Positions 41,161 to 60,093 are shown, counted from the first letter of the stretch. The stretch is DNA of 64,000 nt from Streptosporangiales bacterium (GCA_009379825.1 WHTA01000009.1:1-64000), one strand, 5' to 3'. A program made the numbers and translations. The notes: a model not told the origin generated them from the sequence alone.

Positions 41161-41265
41161 ATGGTGTGGCTGACGTTGGCGATGACCCCACTGTTGCTAC
41201 TCGGCGTCATCGGCATGGGATGGCTCGAACACCATCTGTTCGGCGATGACAGGAACCAACAGTGA
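41161..41265 (+). CDS. 34-aa single-helix membrane peptide
   Basis: The ORF reads MVWLTLAMTPLLLLGVIGMGWLEHHLFGDDRN followed by two Gln and TGA. It is one transmembrane helix with a short polar tail. Its end overlaps the response-regulator ATG (41246) by 20 bp, a coupling arrangement. Similar small membrane ORFs are common near stress regulators, but no family is recognised. The RBS is weak (GACGGGG), so confidence is modest. Confidence 0.45.
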   Translation: MVWLTLAMTPLLLLGVIGMGWLEHHLFGDDRNQQ

Positions 41266-41912
41266 CGTAGCCGTCGCGGTCTTCCTGCTCGACGATCACG
41301 AGGTGGTTCGGCAGGGGGTTGAGAACCCTCGTGGACAGTGAGCCGGACCTGACGGTGGTCGGCGAGGCAGCGACGGCATCGCAGGCACTGGCCCGGGTGC
41401 CGGCGCTGCGCCCGGACGTCGCGATCCTGGACGTGCGGCTACCGGACGGAGATGGGGTGAACGTCTGCCGTGAGCTGCGGGACCGGTTGCCCGCGCTCGC
41501 GTGCGTGATACTCACCTCGTACCACGATGACGACGCGCTGATGCACGCCGTGCTCGCGGGGGCCGAGGCGTATCTGCTGAAGGAGGTCAGCGGCAGCAGC
41601 ATCGTCGACGCGGTGCGGACGGTCGCGCGCGGCCAATCCCTGCTGGACCCACGAGCTACCGCGCGGCTGCTCCACCGGTTGCGGGAGAGCGCGTCGAAGA
41701 AGGACCCGCTGGCCGAGTTGAGCGGCCAGGAGCGCCAGGTGCTCGAGCTCATCGCGCACGGCTTGACCAACCGGCAGATCGGCGAACAGCTGTCCCTGGC
41801 GGAGAAGACGGTGAAGAACTACATCTCCAACATCTTCAGGAAGCTCGGCATTGAAAGGCGCACCCAGGCAGCGATCATCGCCACGGAGCTGCGGGAGCGC
41901 CGGTCGGAGTAG
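41246..41912 (+). pseudogene. DosR/DevR-like response regulator, frameshifted at codon ~24
   Basis: From ATG 41246 the frame reads VAVAVFLLDDHEVVRQG and then dies at a TGA. The remainder (RTLVDSEPDLTVVGEA... VAILDVRLPDGDGVNVC... YLLKEVSG... LTNRQIGEQLSLAEKTVKNYISNIFRKLGIERRTQAA) is in the +1 frame. Removing one G from the run of five at 41314-41318 restores VRQGLRTLVDSEPD. The repaired protein of about 221 aa is a NarL/DevR regulator close to the intact one at 46471. The N-terminal acidic pocket and the phospho-Asp are now in different frames, although TTG 41319 could start a truncated protein with Asp and HTH. Confidence 0.85.
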
Positions 41913-41927
41913 CAGCGTCGATCTCGG

Positions 41928-42203
41928 TCACGACCCGCCAGCCGCGCGTCGGTCGTCGGCGCCGCGGAGAACGTCGAGGCCCTGCTGGTACTCGGCGGCG
42001 TCGATCTCGCCACGGGCGAACCTGGCGGCGAGGAGCGCCTCGGCAGCAGACCCGGTGGGTGTCGTTTCCTGGGCGGAGCCGGAACCGAGCACGTGGCGCA
42101 CGAGCGCGATGATGCCGAGGACGGCCACTGCCCAGAACGTCACCATGGTGACGGCCATCATGCCGACCATCCAGCCAGCCGGCCCGAATCCGAACCAGTG
42201 CAT
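41928..42203 (-). CDS. SHOCT-domain membrane protein
   Basis: This protein of about 91 aa has one N-terminal membrane helix (GWMVGMMAVTMVTFWAVAVLGIIALV) and a C-terminal SHOCT motif (AEALLAARFARGEIDAAEYQQGLDVLRG). SHOCT is a short oligomerisation domain of unknown role, common in actinobacterial membrane proteins. ATG 42203 has a GGAGG RBS. A DosR-box-like palindrome lies 84 bp upstream. It is convergent with the broken regulator gene. Confidence 0.83.
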   Translation of the reverse strand: MHWFGFGPAGWMVGMMAVTMVTFWAVAVLGIIALVRHVLGSGSAQETTPTGSAAEALLAARFARGEIDAAEYQQGLDVLRGADDRRAAGGS

Positions 42204-42286
42204 ACGCGCGCCTCCTCCAGAGTCTCCACGTCCCAGTGGACGCCGGCGCGTCGGCCGACGCCAGAGCCCTCGTGGGTGCATGCGCG

Positions 42287-42300
42287 AGGACCAACGTCCC
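42287..42300. promoter_or_regulatory. DosR-box-like palindrome 1
   Basis: The minus strand reads GGGACGTTGGTCCT; the plus strand reads AGGACCAACGTCCC. The GGGAC...GTCC half-sites match the DosR/DevR binding pattern closely. It is upstream of the SHOCT gene and directly before the kinase remnant at 42317. Confidence 0.55.
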
Positions 42301-42316
42301 CGGGTAGTGGGTAACC

Positions 42317-42484
42317 ATGGAACGGGACGCGAGGGTGCTGCTCGGCCAGCTCCAGCAACAGGTGAGCGACCACGCGGTTGCCGTGCTGCGGGCGGCGTCG
42401 GCGAACATCGCCAAGCACGCGCGCGTCGTCGGGATCGCGGCAGGCGGCCGGCCCCAGGTCGGAGAGCCTCGGCGGGTCGAGGAG
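42317..42484 (+). pseudogene. Sensor histidine kinase fragment
   Basis: The reading frame from ATG 42317 gives LLGQLQQQVSDHAVAVLRAASANIAKHARVVGIAAGG, which resembles the N-box region of HATPase domains in DevS/NarX-type kinases (AVLREALSNIARHARA). No dimerisation domain precedes it and no G-box follows. The frame continues only antisense through the PPOX gene. It is probably the last scrap of the kinase partner of the DosR-like regulators. Confidence 0.4.
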
Positions 42485-42919
42485 TCAGAGGCAGGCCCCG
42501 TCGCCCACCGGCACCAGGCGGAAGCCTGTGACGAGGTGTGGGTCGATCCTGATCACCTGGTCCATCCGGCCGAGGACCCAGGGATGGAGGATCGCGCCGT
42601 ACCGCTCGATGGCCACCGGGTCGTCCACCAGACTAGCCACACCGGTGACGACGACGCTCCAGCCCAGCCGGCGATGCTCGTCGAGCGCGTCCGCCTCGTA
42701 GGCGACCACCGCGCCCGGTCCGGCACCGACGGCCGGCACGATCGCCGCGCCCTCGTGGCTGCGGATGATGACCGCACCCTCGTCGACCACGTGGTTGACG
42801 ACGCGCACGGCGGGTAGGGCCCGGAGGCTGAACACGATGCGCCCCACAGGGACGGTCCCGAGCAGCTCGAGGGACTCGCCGTACGACAGCTCCTTCAGCT
42901 GCCGCTGGGTCGTGTCCAT
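42485..42919 (-). CDS. PPOX-type flavin-binding protein
   Basis: This protein of about 144 aa contains LLGTVPVGRIVFSLRALPAVRVVNHVVDEGAVIIRSHEGAAIVPAVGAGPGAVVAYEADALDEHRRLGWSVVVTGVASLVDD. This is the pyridoxamine 5'-phosphate oxidase-like split barrel that binds FMN or F420. Such proteins are frequent in DosR-type regulons. ATG 42919 has AGGAG seven bases upstream. A weaker DosR-like palindrome lies about 55 bp upstream. Confidence 0.85.
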   Translation of the reverse strand: MDTTQRQLKELSYGESLELLGTVPVGRIVFSLRALPAVRVVNHVVDEGAVIIRSHEGAAIVPAVGAGPGAVVAYEADALDEHRRLGWSVVVTGVASLVDDPVAIERYGAILHPWVLGRMDQVIRIDPHLVTGFRLVPVGDGACL

Positions 42920-42972
42920 ACGCGCTCCTGTGTCCATGCCGCCATGATCTGCCTCAGGGCCGAGGGCCACCA

Positions 42973-42986
42973 GGGCGAATGGTCCC
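42973..42986. promoter_or_regulatory. DosR-box-like palindrome 2 (weaker)
   Basis: The plus strand reads GGGCGAATGGTCCC; the minus strand reads GGGACCATTCGCCC. The GGGAC and CCC ends fit a DosR box, while the centre deviates at about three positions. It stands upstream of the PPOX gene. Confidence 0.4.
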
Positions 42987-43007
42987 GACCGTACGGTCGA
43001 AGGGTCG

Positions 43008-43874
43008 TCAGCGGATGATCGCGACGGGACAGCCGGCGTGGTGGATCAGCGCTTGGCTGACGGAACCGAGCAGCATGCCCGTGAACCGCCACGGCCCCGC
43101 GACCCGACGACGACGAGCTCCGCGCCGGTCGACGCGCGGACGAGCGTGTGGGCAGCTCTGGCGTGCACGACCCGGCGCTGCAGGTCGACGTCGGGGTACT
43201 TGGCGCTCCACCCGCTGAGCTGCTCGGTGAGCAACCGGGTCTCCTCCTGTCGACAGCGTCGACGTCGTACACCAGCGGCAGCATGTCGCCGGGGCCACGG
43301 ACGTCGGCGCGGTCCAGCGGTTCACGGCCGTCAGGCCCACCCCACGCAGCGATGCCTCCTCGAACGCGAACGCGACCGCCTGCTCGGACTGTGGTGACCA
43401 GTCCACACCGACCACGACACGGTGCGCCGACGGTCCCTGTTCTGTGGTTCTCGGGCGCACTACGACGACGGGGCAGGCGGCGTGTGCGGCGACGCCGACA
43501 CCCACGGAGCCGATCAGCAGGCCGCTGAAGCTGCCGAGACACGGTGCCCGACCACCACGACGCCGGCGTGCCGTGACTCGGCCACCAGGGTCGGTACCGG
43601 GGTGCCGGTGATCACCTCGCCGGACACGGTGACGTCGGGTGCCGTGGCAGCGGCGTCGCCGACGTACCTCTTCGCCTCGTTCGAAAAGGCACCGTCCGGC
43701 GGCCCGTAGTCGGACGGACCGAGCGGCACGTCCACGAGAGGCCAGGCGAAGACATGCACACCCGCAGCGGCAGGCCCGCAGCGCCGCCTCGCGGGCTGCC
43801 CAGGCGACTGCGGGGTGGCTGTCCGCCGAACCGTCCACGCCGACAACGACGGGGCGACGTGCTGACCGGGCCAT
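43008..43874 (-). pseudogene. Tandem-domain universal stress protein, multiply frameshifted
   Basis: The start is sound (GAGGAG, then MARSARRPVVVGVDGSADSHPAVAWAAREAALR). The two USP domains are then scattered over all three frames: VHVFAWPLVDVPLGPSDYG...AGVVVVGHR, then LGSFSGLLIGSVGVGVAAHAACPVVVVRPR...RVVVGVDWSPQSEQAVAFAFEEASLRGVGL, then DMLPLVYDVDAV, then MLTEQLSGWSAKYPDVDLQRRVVHARAAHTLVRAS...LVVVGSRG, then MLLGSVSQALIHHAGCPVAIIR. At least four or five indels are needed, so this copy cannot make a full USP. The ATP-binding motif of each domain can still be recognised. The family normally serves in dormancy and redox stress. Confidence 0.85.
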
Positions 43875-44031
43875 GTTCGCTCCTCGGTGCCGATTTGCGT
43901 GACATCTGCAGTACACCGCGACCGGCCGGGAGCCGACAGAGGTTTCCTGCGCGGTAGCGGAGGACCCTGCCGATCGCGGCCGGCTGCGACGAAGCTCGGA
44001 AGCCTGTGCAAGCAGGGAAGGAGAATGAATC

Positions 44032-44469
44032 ATGAGCGGTGACGAGAGCCCGCGGATCGTGGTCGGTATCGACGGGTCGGAGCCGTCGAAGCGGGCGTTG
44101 CGCTGGGCGGTACGGCAGGCGGAGCTGCTCGGCGGCCGCGTGGATGCCGTAGCCGCATGGGAGTACCAGGACGCCTATGTCTGGCTGCTCGACACCAGCC
44201 GCGTCCGGTACGACGACGAGGCGAACGCGATGCTGACCAAGACGATCGAGGAGGTGCTCGGCAGCGAGCCGGTGGTCGAGGTGCGTCCGCAGGTGCGGCA
44301 CGGTGACCCGGCGACGATGTTGCTCGAGGTGGCCGATGGTGCGGCACTGCTGGTCGTCGGTAACCGCGGGCACGGCGCGTTCGTCGGTGCGTTCTTGGGC
44401 TCGGTGAGCTTCCGGTGCGTCCACCATGCGAACTGCCCGGTGGTCGTCGTGCACGGCAGGGGTGACTGA
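44032..44469 (+). CDS. Universal stress protein, single domain
   Basis: This 145-aa protein starts [35 protein letters not shown] and has the ATP-binding signature [19 protein letters not shown] (G-2x-G-9x-GS) near the end. It is intact, in contrast to the divergent tandem USP. USPs of this type are typical members of the DosR regulon in actinobacteria. It precedes the DUF4389 gene, whose GTG follows its stop directly. Confidence 0.92.
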
Positions 44470-44470
44470 G

Positions 44471-45184
44471 GTGGCTGCGCGGTACCCCGTCCGCGTGGAA
44501 GCGCGGCTGGACGGTGAGCTGTCGCGGTGGCTGTGGCTGGTGAAGTGGTTGCTGGCGATCCCGCACTAAGTCGTGCTGTTCTTCCTGTGGATCGCGTTCC
44601 TCGCCGTGAGCATCGCCGCGTTCTTCGCGATCTTGGTGACCGAGCGGTACCCGCGGAGCCTGTTCGCCTTCAACGTCGGTGTGCTGCGCTGGTCGTGGCG
44701 AGTGACGCACTACGCGTACGGGGCGCTGGGCACCGACAGGTACCCGCCGTTCTCGCTGGACGAGGAGCCGGACTACCCGGCCAGCCTGTACGTCGACTAC
44801 CCGCAACGGCTGTCGCGCGGGCTCGTCCTGGTGAAGTGGTGGCTGCTCGCCATCCCGCATTATCTGGTCGTCGGGCTGTTCGTCAGCGGCATCACGTTCG
44901 GGGACCGCGCGGCGGACACGGCGGGCGAGGCGTCCTCGTGGAGTGGTCCGGGCCTCATCGGCCTGCTCGTGTTCTTCGCCGCCGTCGCGTTGCTGTTCGT
45001 TGGCTTCTACCCGCGTGGCCTTTACGACCTGGTGACCGGGCTCAACCGCTGGGTGCTGCGGGTGACCGGCTACGCGGCGCTGATGACCGACACGTACCCA
45101 CCGTTCCGCCTCGACATGGGCGGCGCCGACACCGTGGTACCGGGTGCGGCCGCAAGCGCCGAGTCGGTGGGCGAAGGCGGCTAG
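44471..45184 (+). pseudogene. DUF4389 membrane protein with in-frame TAA
   Basis: From GTG 44471 the frame reads [30 protein letters not shown] and then meets TAA (44567-44569). It continues in the same frame VVLFFLWIAFLAVSIAAFFAILVTERYP through to 45184. The protein repeats this motif later as LVLVKWWLLAIPHYLVVGLF, so the TAA sits where a Tyr codon (TAC or TAT) belongs. The lesion is a single nonsense substitution, codon 33. Reinitiation at GTG 44573 could give a 203-aa product lacking part of the first helix. Confidence 0.82.
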
Positions 45185-45191
45185 CCGCCGC

Positions 45192-45851
45192 TCACCGGTC
45201 GATCCGGCGGCCGCCGATGCGGCTGGGGTCGATCATCAGGTACAGGTGCCGGTCCTCTTCGCCGGCCCACGGTTCGAGGATCGCGCGCATGCGGGAGACC
45301 ACCGCCGGGTTCGCGACCCGGCGGGCCTGCCCGCTGAGCAGGACGCTCCACCCCTGGTGCTGCGCCCCGTCGAGGGAGTCGACCTCGAACGCAACCTGGC
45401 GATCGAGCTGGCCGGCGAGAACGCTGCCCTCCGCGGTCCGGATGACGACGGCACCCTCGTACATGGTGAAGTTCACCGGTACCGCCTCCGGGCCGTGCTC
45501 GGACACGAACACCACCCTGCCGATGCCGCCGTCCGCTAGCAGCCGCATGCACTCGCCGGCCTCCAGCCGCCGGAACCGTGGCTCGCCCGGGCTCCTGCCC
45601 GTGACGCCAGGTGGGCGTTCGACGGTGGCGCCGAGCAACGCGTCGACGGTCGTGTCCAGTGCCGCCGTCAGGCGCAGCAGCGTCCCGGCGGTGAGGGTCG
45701 CGTGGTAGCGCTCCACGTAGTCGAGGTACTCCGGCGCCATGCCGGTGCGGACCGCCACCTGCTCGCGCGTCAGCCCGAGCTCGCGGCGACGGAACGCGAC
45801 CCGCCGGCCCAGGTCGCCTGGCGCGTTGTGGCTGTTGGCTGCTGCTCTCAC
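45192..45851 (-). CDS. XRE-type HTH protein fused to a PPOX-like domain
   Basis: This protein of about 219 aa has an N-terminal helix-turn-helix (LGRRVAFRRRELGLTREQVAVRTGMAPEYLDYVERYHATLTAGTLLRLTAALDTTVDALLG) and a C-terminal flavin-binding split barrel (ECMRLLADGGIGRVVFVSEHGPEAVPVNFTMYEGAVVIRTAEGSVLAGQLDRQVAFEVDSLDG). The fusion suggests a flavin- or redox-sensing regulator. GTG 45851 overlaps the preceding cNMP gene stop (GTGA). Confidence 0.87.
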   Translation of the reverse strand: MRAAANSHNAPGDLGRRVAFRRRELGLTREQVAVRTGMAPEYLDYVERYHATLTAGTLLRLTAALDTTVDALLGATVERPPGVTGRSPGEPRFRRLEAGECMRLLADGGIGRVVFVSEHGPEAVPVNFTMYEGAVVIRTAEGSVLAGQLDRQVAFEVDSLDGAQHQGWSVLLSGQARRVANPAVVSRMRAILEPWAGEEDRHLYLMIDPSRIGGRRIDR

Positions 45852-46342
45852 GACACTGCCTCCGTATCGCTTCCCGATTGGGTACGCAGGTAGAGGTCCA
45901 TCAGGCGGACGCGCGTGGCCTGCAACCGGTTGAGCACGACGGCGAGGAACCGCTGCGTCAGGTCGTAGCCGAAGTCGGGGTCGTCCTGGCACATCGCGCG
46001 CACCGCGCGCCCGTCCAGCTCGAACCCGTGCACCGTGCGATGGACGACCGCGCCGAAGCGCCACTGGTACGGCGGGAAGAGCCAGGACCAGCCGAGTACG
46101 TCGCCGATGCCGAGCGACTCGACGGTCAGCCTCGGGGCCCCCGGGACGATCAGCTCGAGCTCGACCAGACCGTTCTCCAGCAACCAGAACCTGTCCGCCG
46201 TGCCGCCGATGTCGAACAGTCGGTGGCCGGCCGGGAACTCGACGTGGGTCGCCGCGGCGGCGAGCCGGTCGAGGTCGGGTTGGGTCAGGCCGCGCAGGAA
46301 CCCGTGCCGGCCGAGCATCGACCCAGTGACGTCGTTCGTCAT
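45848..46342 (-). CDS. Cyclic-nucleotide-binding-domain protein
   Basis: This 164-aa protein is one Crp-like cNMP-binding fold: FLRGLTQPDLDRLAAAATHVEFPAGHRLFDIGGTADRFWLLENGLVELEL, then SLGIGDVLGWSWLFPPYQWRFGAVVHRTVHGFELDG. The phosphate-binding cassette GE..A..R is not conserved, so ligand binding is uncertain. No DNA-binding domain follows. It is transcribed with the XRE-PPOX gene, and a DosR-like box lies 80 bp upstream, shared with the divergent regulator. Confidence 0.85.
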   Translation of the reverse strand: MTNDVTGSMLGRHGFLRGLTQPDLDRLAAAATHVEFPAGHRLFDIGGTADRFWLLENGLVELELIVPGAPRLTVESLGIGDVLGWSWLFPPYQWRFGAVVHRTVHGFELDGRAVRAMCQDDPDFGYDLTQRFLAVVLNRLQATRVRLMDLYLRTQSGSDTEAVS

Positions 46343-46421
46343 CCTCCTCGCTCCCTCCGTATGCCCCGAGCATCGCCTGCCGGCTCCAGCTACGGACAGT
46401 GCCGTTCGGACGCGTCGGACC

Positions 46422-46435
46422 GGGCCAGAAGTCCC
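46422..46435. promoter_or_regulatory. DosR-box-like palindrome 3 (best match)
   Basis: The plus strand reads GGGCCAGAAGTCCC; the minus strand reads GGGACTTCTGGCCC, which differs from GGGACTTTNGNCCC at one position. It lies 35 bp before the DevR-like gene (46471) and 79 bp before the divergent cNMP-binding gene, so it could serve both. Confidence 0.65.
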
Positions 46436-46470
46436 TACTCGCCACGGTGCGTCACGGCTAGCGTGAATTC

Positions 46471-47151
46471 GTGACTGAGACGCTGATCCGGGTGTTCCTG
46501 CTCGACGACCACGAGGTCGTCCGGCAGGGCGTGCGTGCGGTGCTCCAGGAGGAGCCCGACATCGAGGTCGTCGGCGAGGCGGGCACGATCGCGCAGGCCT
46601 TCGCGCGGGTGCCCGCGCTGCGTCCCGACGTGGCCGTCCTGGACGTTCGGCTGCCCGACGGCAGCGGTGTGGAGGCCTGTCGGGACCTCCGCGCGGAGGT
46701 GCCGGGACTGTCGTGCCTGATGCTCACCTCGTTCGCGGACGACGACGCGTTCGTGCAGGCCGTCCTGGCGGGGGCGTCGGGGTACCTGCTGAAGGAGGTA
46801 CGCGGCGTCAGCATCGTCACGGCGGTCCGTACGGTCGCGGCCGGCCAGTCGCTCCTCGACCCGGCGGTGACGGCGAAGCTGCTCGACCGGCTCCGCGCCG
46901 ACGCGGCCAAGAAGGACCCGCTCGCCGGGCTCAGTGGTCAGGAGCGCCAGGTGCTCGAGCTGATCGGCGAGGGGCTCACCAACCGCGAGATCGGCAACAA
47001 GGTGTTCCTCGCGGAGAAGACGGTGAAGAACTACATCTCGAACATCTTCGTCAAGCTCGGTATCCAGCGCCGCACCCAGGCGGCGATCCTCGCCACCCAG
47101 CTACGCATGGAACGTGACGATCGACCGCACAGTGCCGGCCATCTCTCCTGA
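46471..47151 (+). CDS. devR: DosR/DevR-like NarL-family response regulator
   Basis: This 226-aa protein starts at GTG. The receiver domain has the acidic pair in FLLDDHEVVRQG, phospho-Asp58 in VAVLDVRLPDGSG, Thr86 and Lys108 in GYLLKEVRG. The C-terminal LuxR-type HTH reads LSGQERQVLELIGEGLTNREIGNKVFLAEKTVKNYISNIFVKLGIQRRTQAAILATQL. Both halves are very similar to mycobacterial DevR/DosR. It should bind GGGAC-type palindromes, one of which is in its own promoter. No intact cognate kinase is in the window. Confidence 0.93.
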   Translation: MTETLIRVFLLDDHEVVRQGVRAVLQEEPDIEVVGEAGTIAQAFARVPALRPDVAVLDVRLPDGSGVEACRDLRAEVPGLSCLMLTSFADDDAFVQAVLAGASGYLLKEVRGVSIVTAVRTVAAGQSLLDPAVTAKLLDRLRADAAKKDPLAGLSGQERQVLELIGEGLTNREIGNKVFLAEKTVKNYISNIFVKLGIQRRTQAAILATQLRMERDDRPHSAGHLS

Positions 47152-47161
47152 GGAGGCAGGA

Positions 47162-47738
47162 ATGCTACGCGTTCTCGTCGCCGTGGCTTCCAGGCACGGA
47201 GGCACCGACGGTATTGCACGAGCGCTCGCGGCAGCTGTCCAGCGCACGTTCGACACGTCCGGGGTCGAGGCGGAGGTCGACTGCACCTCCCTCGTCGACG
47301 TGCCGTCGGTCGAACGCTACGACGCCGTCGTGCTCGGCAGTGCCGTGTACATGGGCCGCTGGCTCAGCACCGCGCGACGGTTCGTCGACGCCCACGCGGC
47401 CGAGCTGGCCGTACGCCCGACGTGGTTGTTCTCCAGCGGTCCCATCGGGTCGCCGCAGAAACCCACGGACGATGCTGTCGACGTTGCGCACCTCGTCGAC
47501 ATCACCCGCGCGCGGGCACACGAGACGTTCCCCGGCAGGCTGCAGCGCAACGACCTGCGGCTCGCGGGAACGGGTAGTCGTCCGCGCGTTGCACGCAGCC
47601 GAGGGCGACTTCCGCGACTTCGCCGCGATCGACGAGTGGGGGACCACGATCGCTCGCACGCTGGTCGCCGAACAGACACAGCCAAGGTCCTCCGCAGCTG
47701 GGACCTTCGGCAGTACCCGCAACTCCGTCATCGAGTGA
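47162..47738 (+). pseudogene. Flavodoxin-domain protein, frameshifted
   Basis: From ATG 47162 (RBS GAGGAGG) the frame reads MLRVLVAVASRHGGTDGIARALAAAVQ...YDAVVLGSAVYMGRWLSTARRFVDAH...WLFSSGPIG..., the flavodoxin/HemG-like FMN-binding pattern. At 47566-47568 a GGG appears to have one G too many. Removing it continues LAERVVVRALHAAEGDFRDFAAIDEWGTTIARTL to 47738. As given, the frame instead runs on through nonsense to 47782, into the next gene. The active FMN-binding half is intact. Confidence 0.82.
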
Positions 47739-47778
47739 CGATCGATTCGGGACTCACTCACTCGATGGAGGAAGGAAA

Positions 47779-48381
47779 ATGAGCATGGAATTCAAGCCCA
47801 CGCGGATGGAACCGCAGCCGCCGGTGCAGGAACCGGCCCCTGCGTCGATCGAGCGAGAGGCGAAGCCGACTGGCGGATGGGCGCTCGCGGTGCTGCGTAT
47901 CGCTACCGGGTTCATCTTCCTCTGGGCGTTCATCGACAAGACCTTCGGGCTCGGGTACGCGACGCCGAGGGAGGGTGCCTGGATCCAGGGTGGCGAGCCC
48001 ACCAAGGGCTTCCTCTCGGGCCTGGAAGCCGGCCCGTTCCGCGAGATCTTCCAGAACATGGCAGGCGCCGGCTTGGCCGACTGGCTCTTCATGGTCGGGC
48101 TCCTCGGCGTCGGTGTCGCCGTCATCCTCGGCATCGGGCTGCGGATCTCCGCAGTCGCCGGGTCACTGATGATGTTGCTGATGTGGGTTGCGGAGTGGCC
48201 GCTCGCCCGTTTCGGTGCGGCCGGCGACCCGACCATGTCGACCAACCCGATCGTCGACTACCACATCATCTACGCCCTCGTCCTGATCGCCTGCGCCGTC
48301 GCATACGCCGGCCGCACGTTCGGGCTCGGGCGCCGCTGGGAGAAGCTCGGCTTCGTCGAGCGCAACCGGTGGCTGGTGTGA
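47779..48381 (+). CDS. DoxX/TQO-like membrane protein
   Basis: This 200-aa protein has an N-terminal polar stretch and four hydrophobic segments: GWALAVLRIATGFIFLWAFIDKTFGLG, LADWLFMVGLLGVGVAVILGIGLR, AVAGSLMMLLMWVAEWPL and YHIIYALVLIACAVAYAGRT. FIFLWAFIDKTFGLGYATP and NPIVDYHIIYALVLI are typical of the long DoxX family seen in DosR-type regulons. It may function in thiol or quinone redox balance. RBS GGAGGAAGG precedes ATG 47779. A DosR half-site, TTCGGGACT, is at 47746-47754. Confidence 0.85.
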   Translation: MSMEFKPTRMEPQPPVQEPAPASIEREAKPTGGWALAVLRIATGFIFLWAFIDKTFGLGYATPREGAWIQGGEPTKGFLSGLEAGPFREIFQNMAGAGLADWLFMVGLLGVGVAVILGIGLRISAVAGSLMMLLMWVAEWPLARFGAAGDPTMSTNPIVDYHIIYALVLIACAVAYAGRTFGLGRRWEKLGFVERNRWLV

Positions 48382-48421
48382 CGCGCCCGTAGCAATCGGG
48401 GGCGTGCGCGTCACAGTCCGA

Positions 48422-48455
48422 GCGGGGAGGAGTCGGGGCCACGACTCCTCCCCGC
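48422..48455 (+). terminator. Strong hairpin, probable intrinsic terminator
   Basis: GCGGGGAGGAGTCG (48422-48435) and its exact complement (48442-48455) form a perfect 14-bp stem with a 6-base loop. It lies 41 bp after the DoxX-like stop. There is no T-tract, as is usual in high-GC actinobacteria. Confidence 0.75.
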
Positions 48456-48479
48456 GCCTGTACCTCCAGGAGGCGAGCG

Positions 48480-49037
48480 ATGGTCGACGACAACCCTATG
48501 AGCCGGCCCTGCGACAGGTTGCGGGCGACTGCGCGCGTCTGGCTGGTCGTGATCCTCCTCGCCGGATGCGTGGGTGCTGTGTTCGCGGGGTGGGCGGCAT
48601 ACGACCAGCAACGTGCCATCGACCGGCTGGATGCCAAGTACGGCTACCGCGTCGATGCGCGGATCGTCGCCCGTATCTCTTCTTCCGGTGCACAGGACAA
48701 CGCGGTCGTCCCTCATACCTACCGGCTCGCGTGGCGCGACGCAGCGGGGCGCCGCCACGTGGGGACCTTCGCCTCGATGACGACGAGCACCCGGAACGGC
48801 AGCATGCCCCTCTGGATCGACCACCGCGGCGAGGCGTCGATGACTCGACACACCGGCCGACAGGCAACGGCCGTCGGCGTTCTCACGGGAGTCTCGCTGG
48901 CCGCGGGTGCCGCCGCGGTAGGCACTGTCGCGTACCTGGCGTTCGTGTTCGTACTCGACCGCAGGCGAGCCGCCGCGTGGGCGGCGGAGTGGGCCGTGGT
49001 CGAGCCGCGCTGGCGGCGCGAGGTCCTCGACCTCTGA
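48480..49037 (+). CDS. Rv1733c-like two-helix membrane protein
   Basis: This 185-aa protein starts near NPMSRPCDRLRATARVWLVVILLAGCVGAVFAGWAAYDQQ, has a periplasmic middle (YRVDARIVARISS...YRLAWRDAAGRRHVGTF...MPLWIDHRGEAS) and a second helix (GVLTGVSLAAGAAAVGTVAYLAFVFVLDRRR). This layout matches Rv1733c-type proteins, known members of the mycobacterial DosR regulon and of unknown function. The match is from memory of the family layout, so moderate. Confidence 0.75.
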   Translation: MVDDNPMSRPCDRLRATARVWLVVILLAGCVGAVFAGWAAYDQQRAIDRLDAKYGYRVDARIVARISSSGAQDNAVVPHTYRLAWRDAAGRRHVGTFASMTTSTRNGSMPLWIDHRGEASMTRHTGRQATAVGVLTGVSLAAGAAAVGTVAYLAFVFVLDRRRAAAWAAEWAVVEPRWRREVLDL

Positions 49038-49099
49038 GGCGTGACAGCGCGGTGCCGTTGGGCAAGGATGGAATGGTCTCCGGAGAGAGGAGGGCCACG

Positions 49100-49519
49100 A
49101 TGTCGATGGACGACAGCGCGGTCGCGCAGGGCAGCGGGCGTCGGTCTGCGGCGAACATCGTGATCTGGGTGCTCCAGGTGCTGCTGGCCGCCTACCTGTT
49201 GATCTTCTCCGCCCTTCCGATGGCCACCGGTCAGGAGTACATCGTGGAGACGTTCGACCGGGTCGGCTACGGTCAGTGGTTCCGCTACTTCACCGCTGTC
49301 GTCGAGTCTGCGGGTGCCATCGGCCTGCTGGTACCGCGGCTCGCCGGACTGGCCGCGCTCGGTCTGGTCGGCGTCATGATCGGTGCGGTCACCACGGAGC
49401 TGGCCGTCCGGAGCCCGTCGGGAGCGGTGTTGCCCGCAGTGCTCGGAGTGCTGTTCTGTGTGGTCGCCTGGTACCGGCGGGGCGACGTGAAGGCGTTCGT
49501 CACGATCTTCAGACGCTGA
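49100..49519 (+). CDS. DoxX family membrane protein
   Basis: This 139-aa protein has four hydrophobic helices: NIVIWVLQVLLAAYLLIFSALPMA, YFTAVVESAGAIGLLVPRLAGLAALGLVGVMIGAVTTELAV and AVLPAVLGVLFCVVAWYRRG. FDRVGYGQWFRYFTAVVESAGAIGLL is a DoxX signature. ATG 49100 follows GAGAGGAGGG. Its last 235 bp overlap, on the opposite strand, the extended end of the flippase-like ORF. Confidence 0.85.
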   Translation: MSMDDSAVAQGSGRRSAANIVIWVLQVLLAAYLLIFSALPMATGQEYIVETFDRVGYGQWFRYFTAVVESAGAIGLLVPRLAGLAALGLVGVMIGAVTTELAVRSPSGAVLPAVLGVLFCVVAWYRRGDVKAFVTIFRR

Positions 49520-50526
49520 CCGGCTTGCGCCAGCAGCACGAGCGCCCCCGGCAGGCTGGCGACGAGGGCGAGCACGCCGTACACCACCGCAGTGGCGACT
49601 CCGTGCGACGCGCCGAGCCCCGCCGCACCGAACGCCAGCGCACACCCGGCTTCCCTGGGTCCCCACCCGCCGATGTTGGTCGGCACTCCCATGGCGAGCA
49701 GTGCCAGCAGGAACAGCGGCAGGAGCTGCGTCACCGGTGCGGTCACGCCGGCGGTTCGTGCGGCGACGAGGAACATCGCGAGGTGACCGACGACGGTCGC
49801 CACGGACAGGATCACGACGCTCGGACAGGTGCGACGGCACAGCATCGTCACACGCGCTTCCGTGAACGCAGCGGCAACGCCGCTGCGCAGTCTGGAGTCG
49901 TTCTTGCCGTACCTCGCCCAGATGGCGGCCGCGACCGCGCAGGCGACGCCACCGGCCGGTACGGCCAGCAGCCCCGGGCTCGGGTCGAGCTTGTCGGCCG
50001 TCAGCGCGAACAGGGTGGGGTGCGCGAGCAGCGACGCTATCGCTATGACCACCAGCACGACCGCACCTGCCGTGCGCTCGAGTACGACGGCGCGCACGCC
50101 CCTGGCCGTGTTCCCCGCGAGCCGCCCGTGCCGCACGCCACGGTCGACGTCACCGAGCACGCCCGCGGGTAGCACGGCGTTGAGCAGCAGTGCGCGGTAG
50201 TAGCCGGCGATCGCTGTCGGCAGCGGCAGCGGCAGGTCGAGCCGGTGCGCGATCACCTGCCAGCGGATCGCGGTGCATATCGTGGTGAGCCAGCCGATCA
50301 CGAGTGCAGCCAGCAGTGCCTGGGCGTCGATGGTGCCGAGCCCGCGGACGAACGCTTCCGTCCCCAGGCGCCAGCCGAGCACCACGAGGATCCCGATGCC
50401 GATGAGGCCCCGTAGCCACGGCCAGAGCCGGCGTGCCGATGCCCTGGGTCTCGATTCCGTTCGGTTGTTGGCTGGCGGATCGTAGGCCGTCGGCACGTGC
50501 GTGGTCCTCGTCTCGGCTCGCGTCAT
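49285..50526 (-). CDS. LPG-synthase-TM/AglD-like flippase family protein
   Basis: This protein of about 413 aa has eight or nine hydrophobic segments with RWQVIAHRLDLPLPLPTAIAGYYRALLLNAVLPAGVLGDVDRGVRHGR, VLERTAGAVVLVVIAI and LLAMGVPTNIGGWGPREAGCALAFGAAGL. These typify the lysylphosphatidylglycerol synthase TM region (UPF0104) family, putative lipid flippases. The conserved part ends near 49520. The last 78 residues are read antisense through the DoxX gene and look non-native, so the true stop may have been lost. Confidence 0.82.
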   Translation of the reverse strand: MTRAETRTTHVPTAYDPPANNRTESRPRASARRLWPWLRGLIGIGILVVLGWRLGTEAFVRGLGTIDAQALLAALVIGWLTTICTAIRWQVIAHRLDLPLPLPTAIAGYYRALLLNAVLPAGVLGDVDRGVRHGRLAGNTARGVRAVVLERTAGAVVLVVIAIASLLAHPTLFALTADKLDPSPGLLAVPAGGVACAVAAAIWARYGKNDSRLRSGVAAAFTEARVTMLCRRTCPSVVILSVATVVGHLAMFLVAARTAGVTAPVTQLLPLFLLALLAMGVPTNIGGWGPREAGCALAFGAAGLGASHGVATAVVYGVLALVASLPGALVLLAQAGQRLKIVTNAFTSPRRYQATTQNSTPSTAGNTAPDGLRTASSVVTAPIMTPTRPSAASPASRGTSRPMAPADSTTAVK

Positions 50527-50557
50527 CGTGCCGACCAAGCGTATCGCGGTGCCTCGG

Positions 50558-59373: not shown

Positions 59374-60093
59374 TCAGGCATCCGGGCTTCTCGACCTCCG
59401 CCGTACGTCGTTCTCGCTGGCGACCAGGCGCGCGGCCAGGTCGCGGAGCCTGGTGTTGCTGTTCTGCGACGCCCGCACGAGCAGGGTGAACGCCTCGTCC
59501 GTCGTCAGCTGGTGGCGTTCGGCGAGGATCCCGGTGGCCTGGCCGATCTGTTGCCTGGTGACCAGCGCCCTGGCGAGCTCCGCGTGGCCGCGCTCCTCGG
59601 CGATGGCGACTGCCGCATGCGCGGCGAAGACCTGTGCGACGTCGCGAGTGACCTCGTCGAACGCACCAGGCGTGTCGGAGTACAGGTTCAGCGCCCCCAG
59701 GGTGTCCGCATGGGTGTACAGCTGGATCCCCAGCGCGCTCCTGATGCCTCGCTCCACGGCCGCGGCGGCGAACTTGGGCCAGCGCTGCTCTTCGGCGAGG
59801 TCGTCCGACCAGACGACCCGGTCGTGCCAGAGCGCGGTGACGCAGGGCCCGTCGCCGAGCTGGTACTGCAGGTCGTGCAGGTCCTCCGACGCGGGGCTTG
59901 TGGTGGCGAGCGTCCGGCCACGCTGCTCCCGCCGCGCCTCGATGATCCCGGCCCGCCGACAGCCGGCGATGACGGCTACCGCCCGGTCGCAGACCTCGTC
60001 GAGCGTCGCCTGTGTCCCCGGGGCCGCCTCGAAGTCCCGCGCGGCATCGGCAAGCAGCTGCGCGACGTCCTGGCTGTCGCCGGAGTTCGCCAT
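59374..60093 (-). CDS. GAF and ANTAR domain regulator
   Basis: This protein of about 239 aa has a GAF domain (LDEVCDRAVAVIAGCRRAGIIEARRE...LQYQLGDGPCVTALWHDRVVWSDDLAEEQRWPKFAAAAVERGIRSALGIQLYTHADTLGALNLYSD) and a C-terminal ANTAR domain (ALVTRQQIGQATGILAERHQLTTDEAFTLLVRASQNSNTRLRDLAARLV). ANTAR domains bind paired RNA hairpins and prevent termination. The GAF domain probably senses a small ligand. It lies downstream of a SigB/SigF-type gene on the same strand. Confidence 0.93.
   Translation of the reverse strand: MANSGDSQDVAQLLADAARDFEAAPGTQATLDEVCDRAVAVIAGCRRAGIIEARREQRGRTLATTSPASEDLHDLQYQLGDGPCVTALWHDRVVWSDDLAEEQRWPKFAAAAVERGIRSALGIQLYTHADTLGALNLYSDTPGAFDEVTRDVAQVFAAHAAVAIAEERGHAELARALVTRQQIGQATGILAERHQLTTDEAFTLLVRASQNSNTRLRDLAARLVASENDVRRRSRSPDA

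Follow-up and report, generated by a model that had tools for sequence, protein, structure and literature searches.

Is positions 41161-49519 of a Streptosporangiales genome, within a stretch of 64,000 nucleotides (GCA_009379825.1, WHTA01000009.1:1-64000; hereafter the window), a dormancy island of the DosR/DevR type, and if so, which sensor kinase serves it? A similar low-oxygen dormancy gene cluster helps the tuberculosis bacterium to persist. A first-pass annotation, made from the sequence alone, had proposed such an island outside mycobacteria, partly decayed and lacking its cognate kinase except for a scrap at 42317. We consider it highly probable that the segment represents a hypoxia/redox dormancy island of the DosR/DevR (OsdR) type, probably driven by a remote kinase, while the control of its genes by hypoxia or nitric oxide (NO) is predicted from sequence.

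Regulators, gene content and synteny

Profile searches with Pfam and NCBIfam located all gene families named by the first-pass annotation where it had placed them: two NarL/DevR-type regulators (RR1 and RR2), a universal stress protein (USP), a tandem USP, PPOX and XRE-PPOX proteins, a cNMP-binding fold, a flavodoxin, DUF4389, DoxX, DoxX_2 and Rv1733c (Table 1). The full-length RR2 combines a NarL-type receiver with a GerE domain, and DosR is its nearest relative among solved structures. Comparison with the PDB gave M. tuberculosis DevR/DosR (3c3w) with E 1.4e-79 across 212 residues, while the next matches, VraR and NarL, were much weaker. In the 3c3w alignment RR2 keeps the phospho-acceptor Asp segment (VLDVRLPDG) and the recognition helix (EKTVKNY), including its Lys and Asn. 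RR2-like proteins (E below 1e-40) were present in all 151 of the 151 genomes searched, the best matches being 60-78% identical.

RR1 carries the same two domains but is frameshifted, so that of the two DevR-like regulators proposed earlier both exist and only RR2 is intact. Against a third DevR of the same genome, encoded on contig C32, RR1 aligns in frame 2 at 41273-41320 and then in frame 3 at 41313-41903 (73% identity). A tree of 23 rows unites RR1 and RR2 with the C32 paralogue and the DevRs of three congeners in a single clade (100/100), which also takes in most of the order with unresolved branching. This common clade argues for duplication within the lineage and not for recent import.

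The synteny comparison suggested by the first-pass annotation revealed that relatives group the same families with devR. In a sister species (genome G001), contig C42 comprises, within 46 kb, nitrate reductase, USPs, CBS, Hsp20, GH65, devR, flavodoxin, devS, nitroreductase, DoxX, Rv1733c and cNMP genes, the CBS and nitrate reductase labels coming partly from reading translations. This C42 island (L112-L114) and the present one, both of the same genus, have devR, flavodoxin, DoxX, Rv1733c, cNMP, USP and XRE-PPOX in common, whereas C42 is larger, follows another gene order and holds nitrate reductase and an intact devS. Among the best 29 XRE-PPOX loci of relatives, a few of them shortened by contig ends, a USP gene lies within 10 kb in 19, a CBS gene in 14 and a DevR gene in 9, each against none in 20 arbitrary windows; PPOX counts at these loci are too high, since the query gene is counted as well. 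The 20 control windows (20 kb each, from relatives) contained no USP, DevR, DevS, CBS or DUF4389 match and a single HAD match. Since they are nearly empty of island families, chance is excluded as the cause of this grouping. The search of genome contigs for XRE-PPOX yielded a single named relative, Streptomyces phyllanthi, in which the gene stands with USPs, nitroreductases, Rv1733c, CBS and DUF4389.

Dormancy islands outside mycobacteria are already a known kind, since the regulon of OsdR/OsdK in S. coelicolor (SCO0167-SCO0219), an experimentally supported counterpart of DevR, was published in 2016 (PMC5069765). Like the window, it places a DevR-type regulator amid USP, PPOX and nitroreductase genes, and its autoregulatory palindrome AGGGCCGATCGGCCCT is compatible with GGGCCAGAAGTCCC of the window. 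In contrast, osdR and osdK are an intact adjacent pair, while in the window a frameshifted devR has a devS relic nearby, with the intact kinase encoded elsewhere. With the DosR/DevR-DosS/DosT regulon of M. tuberculosis the locus shares regulator homology, the Rv1733c family, USPs, PPOX/FDOR proteins and a haem-GAF kinase in the genome; it differs in gene order, in its XRE-PPOX and stand-alone cNMP proteins and in possessing several DevR paralogues.

Table 1. Features of the island, with positions in the window
Feature	Position	Strand	Basis or remark
Small open reading frame (ORF), 34 aa, apparently one membrane span	41161..41265	+	Translation; adjoins RR1, 3' end overlapping RR1 start
RR1, DevR-like NarL-family regulator, one frameshift	41246..41912	+	Response_reg and GerE; change in GGGGG run near 41316
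SHOCT-like short membrane protein, 91 aa	41928..42203	-	Named by eye; overlooked by the first-pass annotation
DevR-box-like palindrome AGGACCAACGTCCC	42287..42300		97 bases upstream of SHOCT-like gene, 1 mismatch; best of the window by other-genera matrix
devS relic with ATPase N-box, plus a G-box-like piece read in a different frame	42344..42515	+	DNA identity and tblastn
PPOX-domain protein (Pyridox_ox_2)	42485..42919	-	Pfam E 2.4e-22; best PDB match 6eci, E 1.1e-10
Weak DevR-box-like site GGGCGAATGGTCCC	42973..42986		Upstream of PPOX, 2 mismatches; not distinctive by other-genera matrix
Tandem USP pseudogene	43008..43943	-	Five frame changes
Single-domain USP, intact	44032..44469	+	Pfam E 8.1e-30
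DUF4389 membrane protein	44573..45184	+	Pfam E 1.8e-15
XRE helix-turn-helix (HTH) fused to PPOX domain	45192..45851	-	Pfam HTH_3 1.1e-6, Pyridox_ox_2 2.3e-22
Stand-alone cNMP/CRP-fold ligand-binding protein, without HTH	45848..46342	-	Pfam 29.0 bits, cut-off 27.5; matches CRP-family ligand domains
DevR-box-like site GGGCCAGAAGTCCC	46422..46435		Shared divergent RR2/cNMP promoter, -49 from RR2
RR2, intact DevR/DosR-like response regulator	46471..47151	+	Response_reg and GerE; 3c3w match
Flavodoxin (Flavodoxin_5), one frameshift	47162..47730	+	Pfam; frame change near 47565
DoxX family membrane protein	47779..48381	+	Pfam 22.2 bits, slightly below cut-off 23.6
Rv1733c family membrane protein	48480..49037	+	NCBIfam NF050032, 91.4 bits, cut-off 80
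DoxX-like (DoxX_2) membrane protein	49100..49519	+	Pfam E 2.3e-17

For some of the smaller genes further observations were made. The 34-residue peptide may represent a small dormancy-island gene. The NCBIfam search gave no match for the SHOCT-like protein, while homologues of 43-48% identity lie near XRE-PPOX/DUF4389 in relatives. For the first DoxX protein, a 63% relative is present in the island of the sister species. At the right edge, the last ~85 residues of an LPG_synthase_TM gene (49285-50538) run antisense through DoxX2, apparently out of frame, which may indicate a further frameshift. Outside the island, a GAF-ANTAR protein (59374-60093) is a putative RNA-binding antiterminator.

Probable loss of one regulator-kinase copy and a kinase elsewhere

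The partial decay proposed earlier is borne out by the tandem USP and the devS relic. Aligned with intact relatives, the tandem USP falls into six successive segments, with five frame switches between 43853 and 43011; thus of the reported USP pair both members are present, but the tandem one is dead. For the kinase scrap the Pfam search gave no name, but comparison with homologous kinases and at the DNA level identified it. A stretch of 55 bp shows 85% identity to the intact devS of the same genome (E 1.9e-14), and 8 of 11 DevS-type kinases have their best tblastn place in the window at 42344-42424 (top E 5.6e-5). Reversed-kinase controls matched other places of the window, mostly more weakly.

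The scrap is therefore genuine and the island has no kinase of its own, but the genome does possess one. At C19:534-2264 lies a DevS/DosT-type kinase with two GAF domains, HisKA_3 and HATPase_c, the sole full-length one in the genome; its existence makes the absence of the kinase from the island a local matter. Its GAF-A domain matches 2vzw, which we take to be DosT, with E 6.9e-51 and the histidine of an HPPM motif aligned, and PDB chains labelled DEVS match as well. By residue counting, and with a construct numbering that we assume, this histidine presumably corresponds to the DevS haem ligand His149. Adjoining the kinase, C19:7-351 and C124:1-441 are apparent halves of one intact tandem-USP gene split by contig ends, which suggests that the two contigs adjoin.

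In S. coelicolor, osdR and osdK form an operon (PMC5069765), and in the window RR1 is followed by a devS remnant on the same strand near the dead tandem USP. This analogy suggests that RR1, devS and the tandem USP may have decayed together as a single devRS-USP unit. Decay within a dormancy regulon has a precedent in M. tuberculosis, where the fsq counterpart Rv3129 bears a frameshift (PMC13284343). With RR1 broken and the local devS crumbled, the surviving regulator probably answers to a sensor elsewhere in the genome, and sequence comparison points to the remote DevS as the kinase that probably drives RR2 in trans.

Promoter sites and alternative explanations

Three palindromes of the GGGAC-N4-GTCCC type are found in the island, two good ones (42287 and 46422) and a weak one. 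The site at RR2 is conserved in position: the devR of the sister species carries GGGCCAGAGGTCCC at -48 and the C32 devR carries GGGACACAAGTCCC, an exact fit to GGGACN4GTCCC, at -46, while many devR genes of other genera have theirs near -38. A matrix trained only on devR promoters of other genera scored the SHOCT-like promoter with 13.3 and the shared RR2/cNMP promoter with 10.9, both higher than any of the 55 promoters outside the island, whose maximum was 9.3, and few permuted matrices equalled this result. Our earlier box scoring (half penalty, C/G at the fourth position) was chosen after the sites had been seen, which makes the matrix the fairer test. The box tests used 49142 rather than 49100 as the DoxX2 start, which affects only the DoxX2 row.

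The mycobacterial 20-base DosR consensus TTSGGGACTWWAGTCCCSAA had no match in the window with up to 3 mismatches, and a loose 14-mer box was not enriched window-wide (51 observed, 95 expected); only promoter position and the matrix tests are informative. Exact boxes across the genome numbered 6, as many as in the reversed control (6), so this count is uninformative and only the sites at the C32 devR and on C18 were used. Contig C18 carries, at about 9.4-12.6 kb (L078 8418-11582), a cluster of USP, HAD and site-2-protease genes with strong DevR-box-like sites at L078:1681 and 9853. We take it to resemble the Rv2623-Rv2625c part of the DosR regulon; its site-2-protease gene is apparently split over two frames.

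Several points weigh against a functional DevR-controlled island. The matrix result is of modest strength (12 versus 55 promoters, Mann-Whitney p 0.028), both the C18 USP cluster and the sister species have stronger boxes than the island, and most island genes, including RR1, have no recognisable box in the mismatch and matrix scans. Furthermore, the genome is a draft assembly of 169 contigs, so the lone frameshift of RR1 and that of the flavodoxin could each reflect an error in the sequence. One could thus envision the island as a relic, the working parts of the regulon being the C32 devR, the C18 USP cluster and the C19 devS while the whole segment is being lost. This scenario would fit the weak boxes, the devS fragment and the three broken genes of the island, as well as the strong C18 site and the perfect site at the C32 devR. 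However, the frames of RR2, cNMP, XRE-PPOX, PPOX, USP, DUF4389, both DoxX genes and Rv1733c are intact and the promoter box of RR2 is kept in the sister species; we regard such a relic as unlikely.

If, conversely, the frameshifts were sequencing or assembly errors, the island would be intact except for devS, and the draft state of the assembly as well as the position of the RR1 change in a GGGGG run are in line with this. Yet the tandem USP accumulates five frame changes in 0.9 kb of one gene, for which sequence error is hard to invoke, the frame map of the remaining window displays no similar cluster, and what is left of devS is a fragment lacking parts of the gene, not a frame error. This explanation appears quite improbable. 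A generic envelope or oxidative-stress cluster under another NarL-type system, without DevR-type hypoxia control, would account for the USP, DoxX and PPOX proteins, which are found in many stress responses, given that the DevR-type signal is deduced. It is opposed by the conserved boxes and the DosR-lineage placement of RR2 and by the clustering with devR/devS in relatives, and we give it very little credence.

A DosR/DevR-type island with a remote kinase could work as follows. The haem-GAF kinase of C19 (DevS/DosT type) probably phosphorylates RR2 and its C32 paralogue when oxygen falls or when NO or CO binds. Phosphorylated RR2 would bind GGGMC-N4-GKCCC palindromes, including the site between RR2 and the cNMP/XRE-PPOX genes, which would provide autoregulation, and the site before the SHOCT-like gene. 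It would thereby turn on USP, PPOX flavin-binding, DoxX and Rv1733c-type proteins and permit survival without growth. The island itself may stem from a duplicated devR-devS-USP module, of which the RR2 side persists, whereas RR1, its devS and the tandem USP have died or are decaying.

The XRE-PPOX/cNMP pair and what the island means

The first-pass annotation had called XRE-PPOX and DUF4389 unusual, which did not hold: XRE-PPOX loci are linked to USP and devR, and both genes occur in the Streptomyces phyllanthi island. By our own row count, near-full-length XRE-PPOX is encoded in about 78 of the 151 genomes. DUF4389 has relatives of 62-64% in other genera besides the one in S. phyllanthi, and the cNMP protein has relatives of 56-57% in the same genus. 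Since XRE-PPOX overlaps the cNMP stop codon, the two probably form one transcript. The best PDB match of the PPOX part of XRE-PPOX is 6eci (E 1.1e-15), presumably Fsq. For the single-domain PPOX protein, a 67% relative with a strong upstream box is found in the sister species. Contig C135 of that species (L055) is a second island-like locus, with XRE-PPOX, a SHOCT-like gene, a tandem USP and the 67%-identical PPOX gene, which has a perfect box 106 bases upstream.

In M. smegmatis, the dormancy regulon includes Fsq (MSMEG_5243), which sequesters FAD (PMC13284343). The PPOX proteins of the window appear to share the PPOX/FDOR-type flavin-binding fold of Fsq, while XRE-PPOX differs by an added DNA-binding domain, its flavin binding being a prediction. 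Throughout the order, and in a Streptomyces as well, XRE-PPOX is tied to DosR/USP islands; with cNMP it is divergent from devR over a shared DevR box. On this basis one might speculate, although we find it rather doubtful, that cNMP and XRE-PPOX form a second-tier regulator, in which an Fsq-like flavin-binding domain fused to a DNA-binding domain would sense the flavin or redox state and tune the dormancy genes. A single search of the literature on PPOX, DosR and helix-turn-helix proteins gave no title or abstract that deals with an XRE-PPOX regulator, and we are aware of no function described for this protein.

Taken together, XRE-PPOX is a frequent, unstudied companion of DosR-type islands and a candidate flavin-responsive regulator. 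The island is of interest for this XRE-PPOX/cNMP pair and because one regulator-kinase copy has been lost, probably with rewiring to a remote kinase. Here a dormancy two-component module is seen midway in the loss of one duplicate, the surviving regulator of which probably relies on a kinase in trans.

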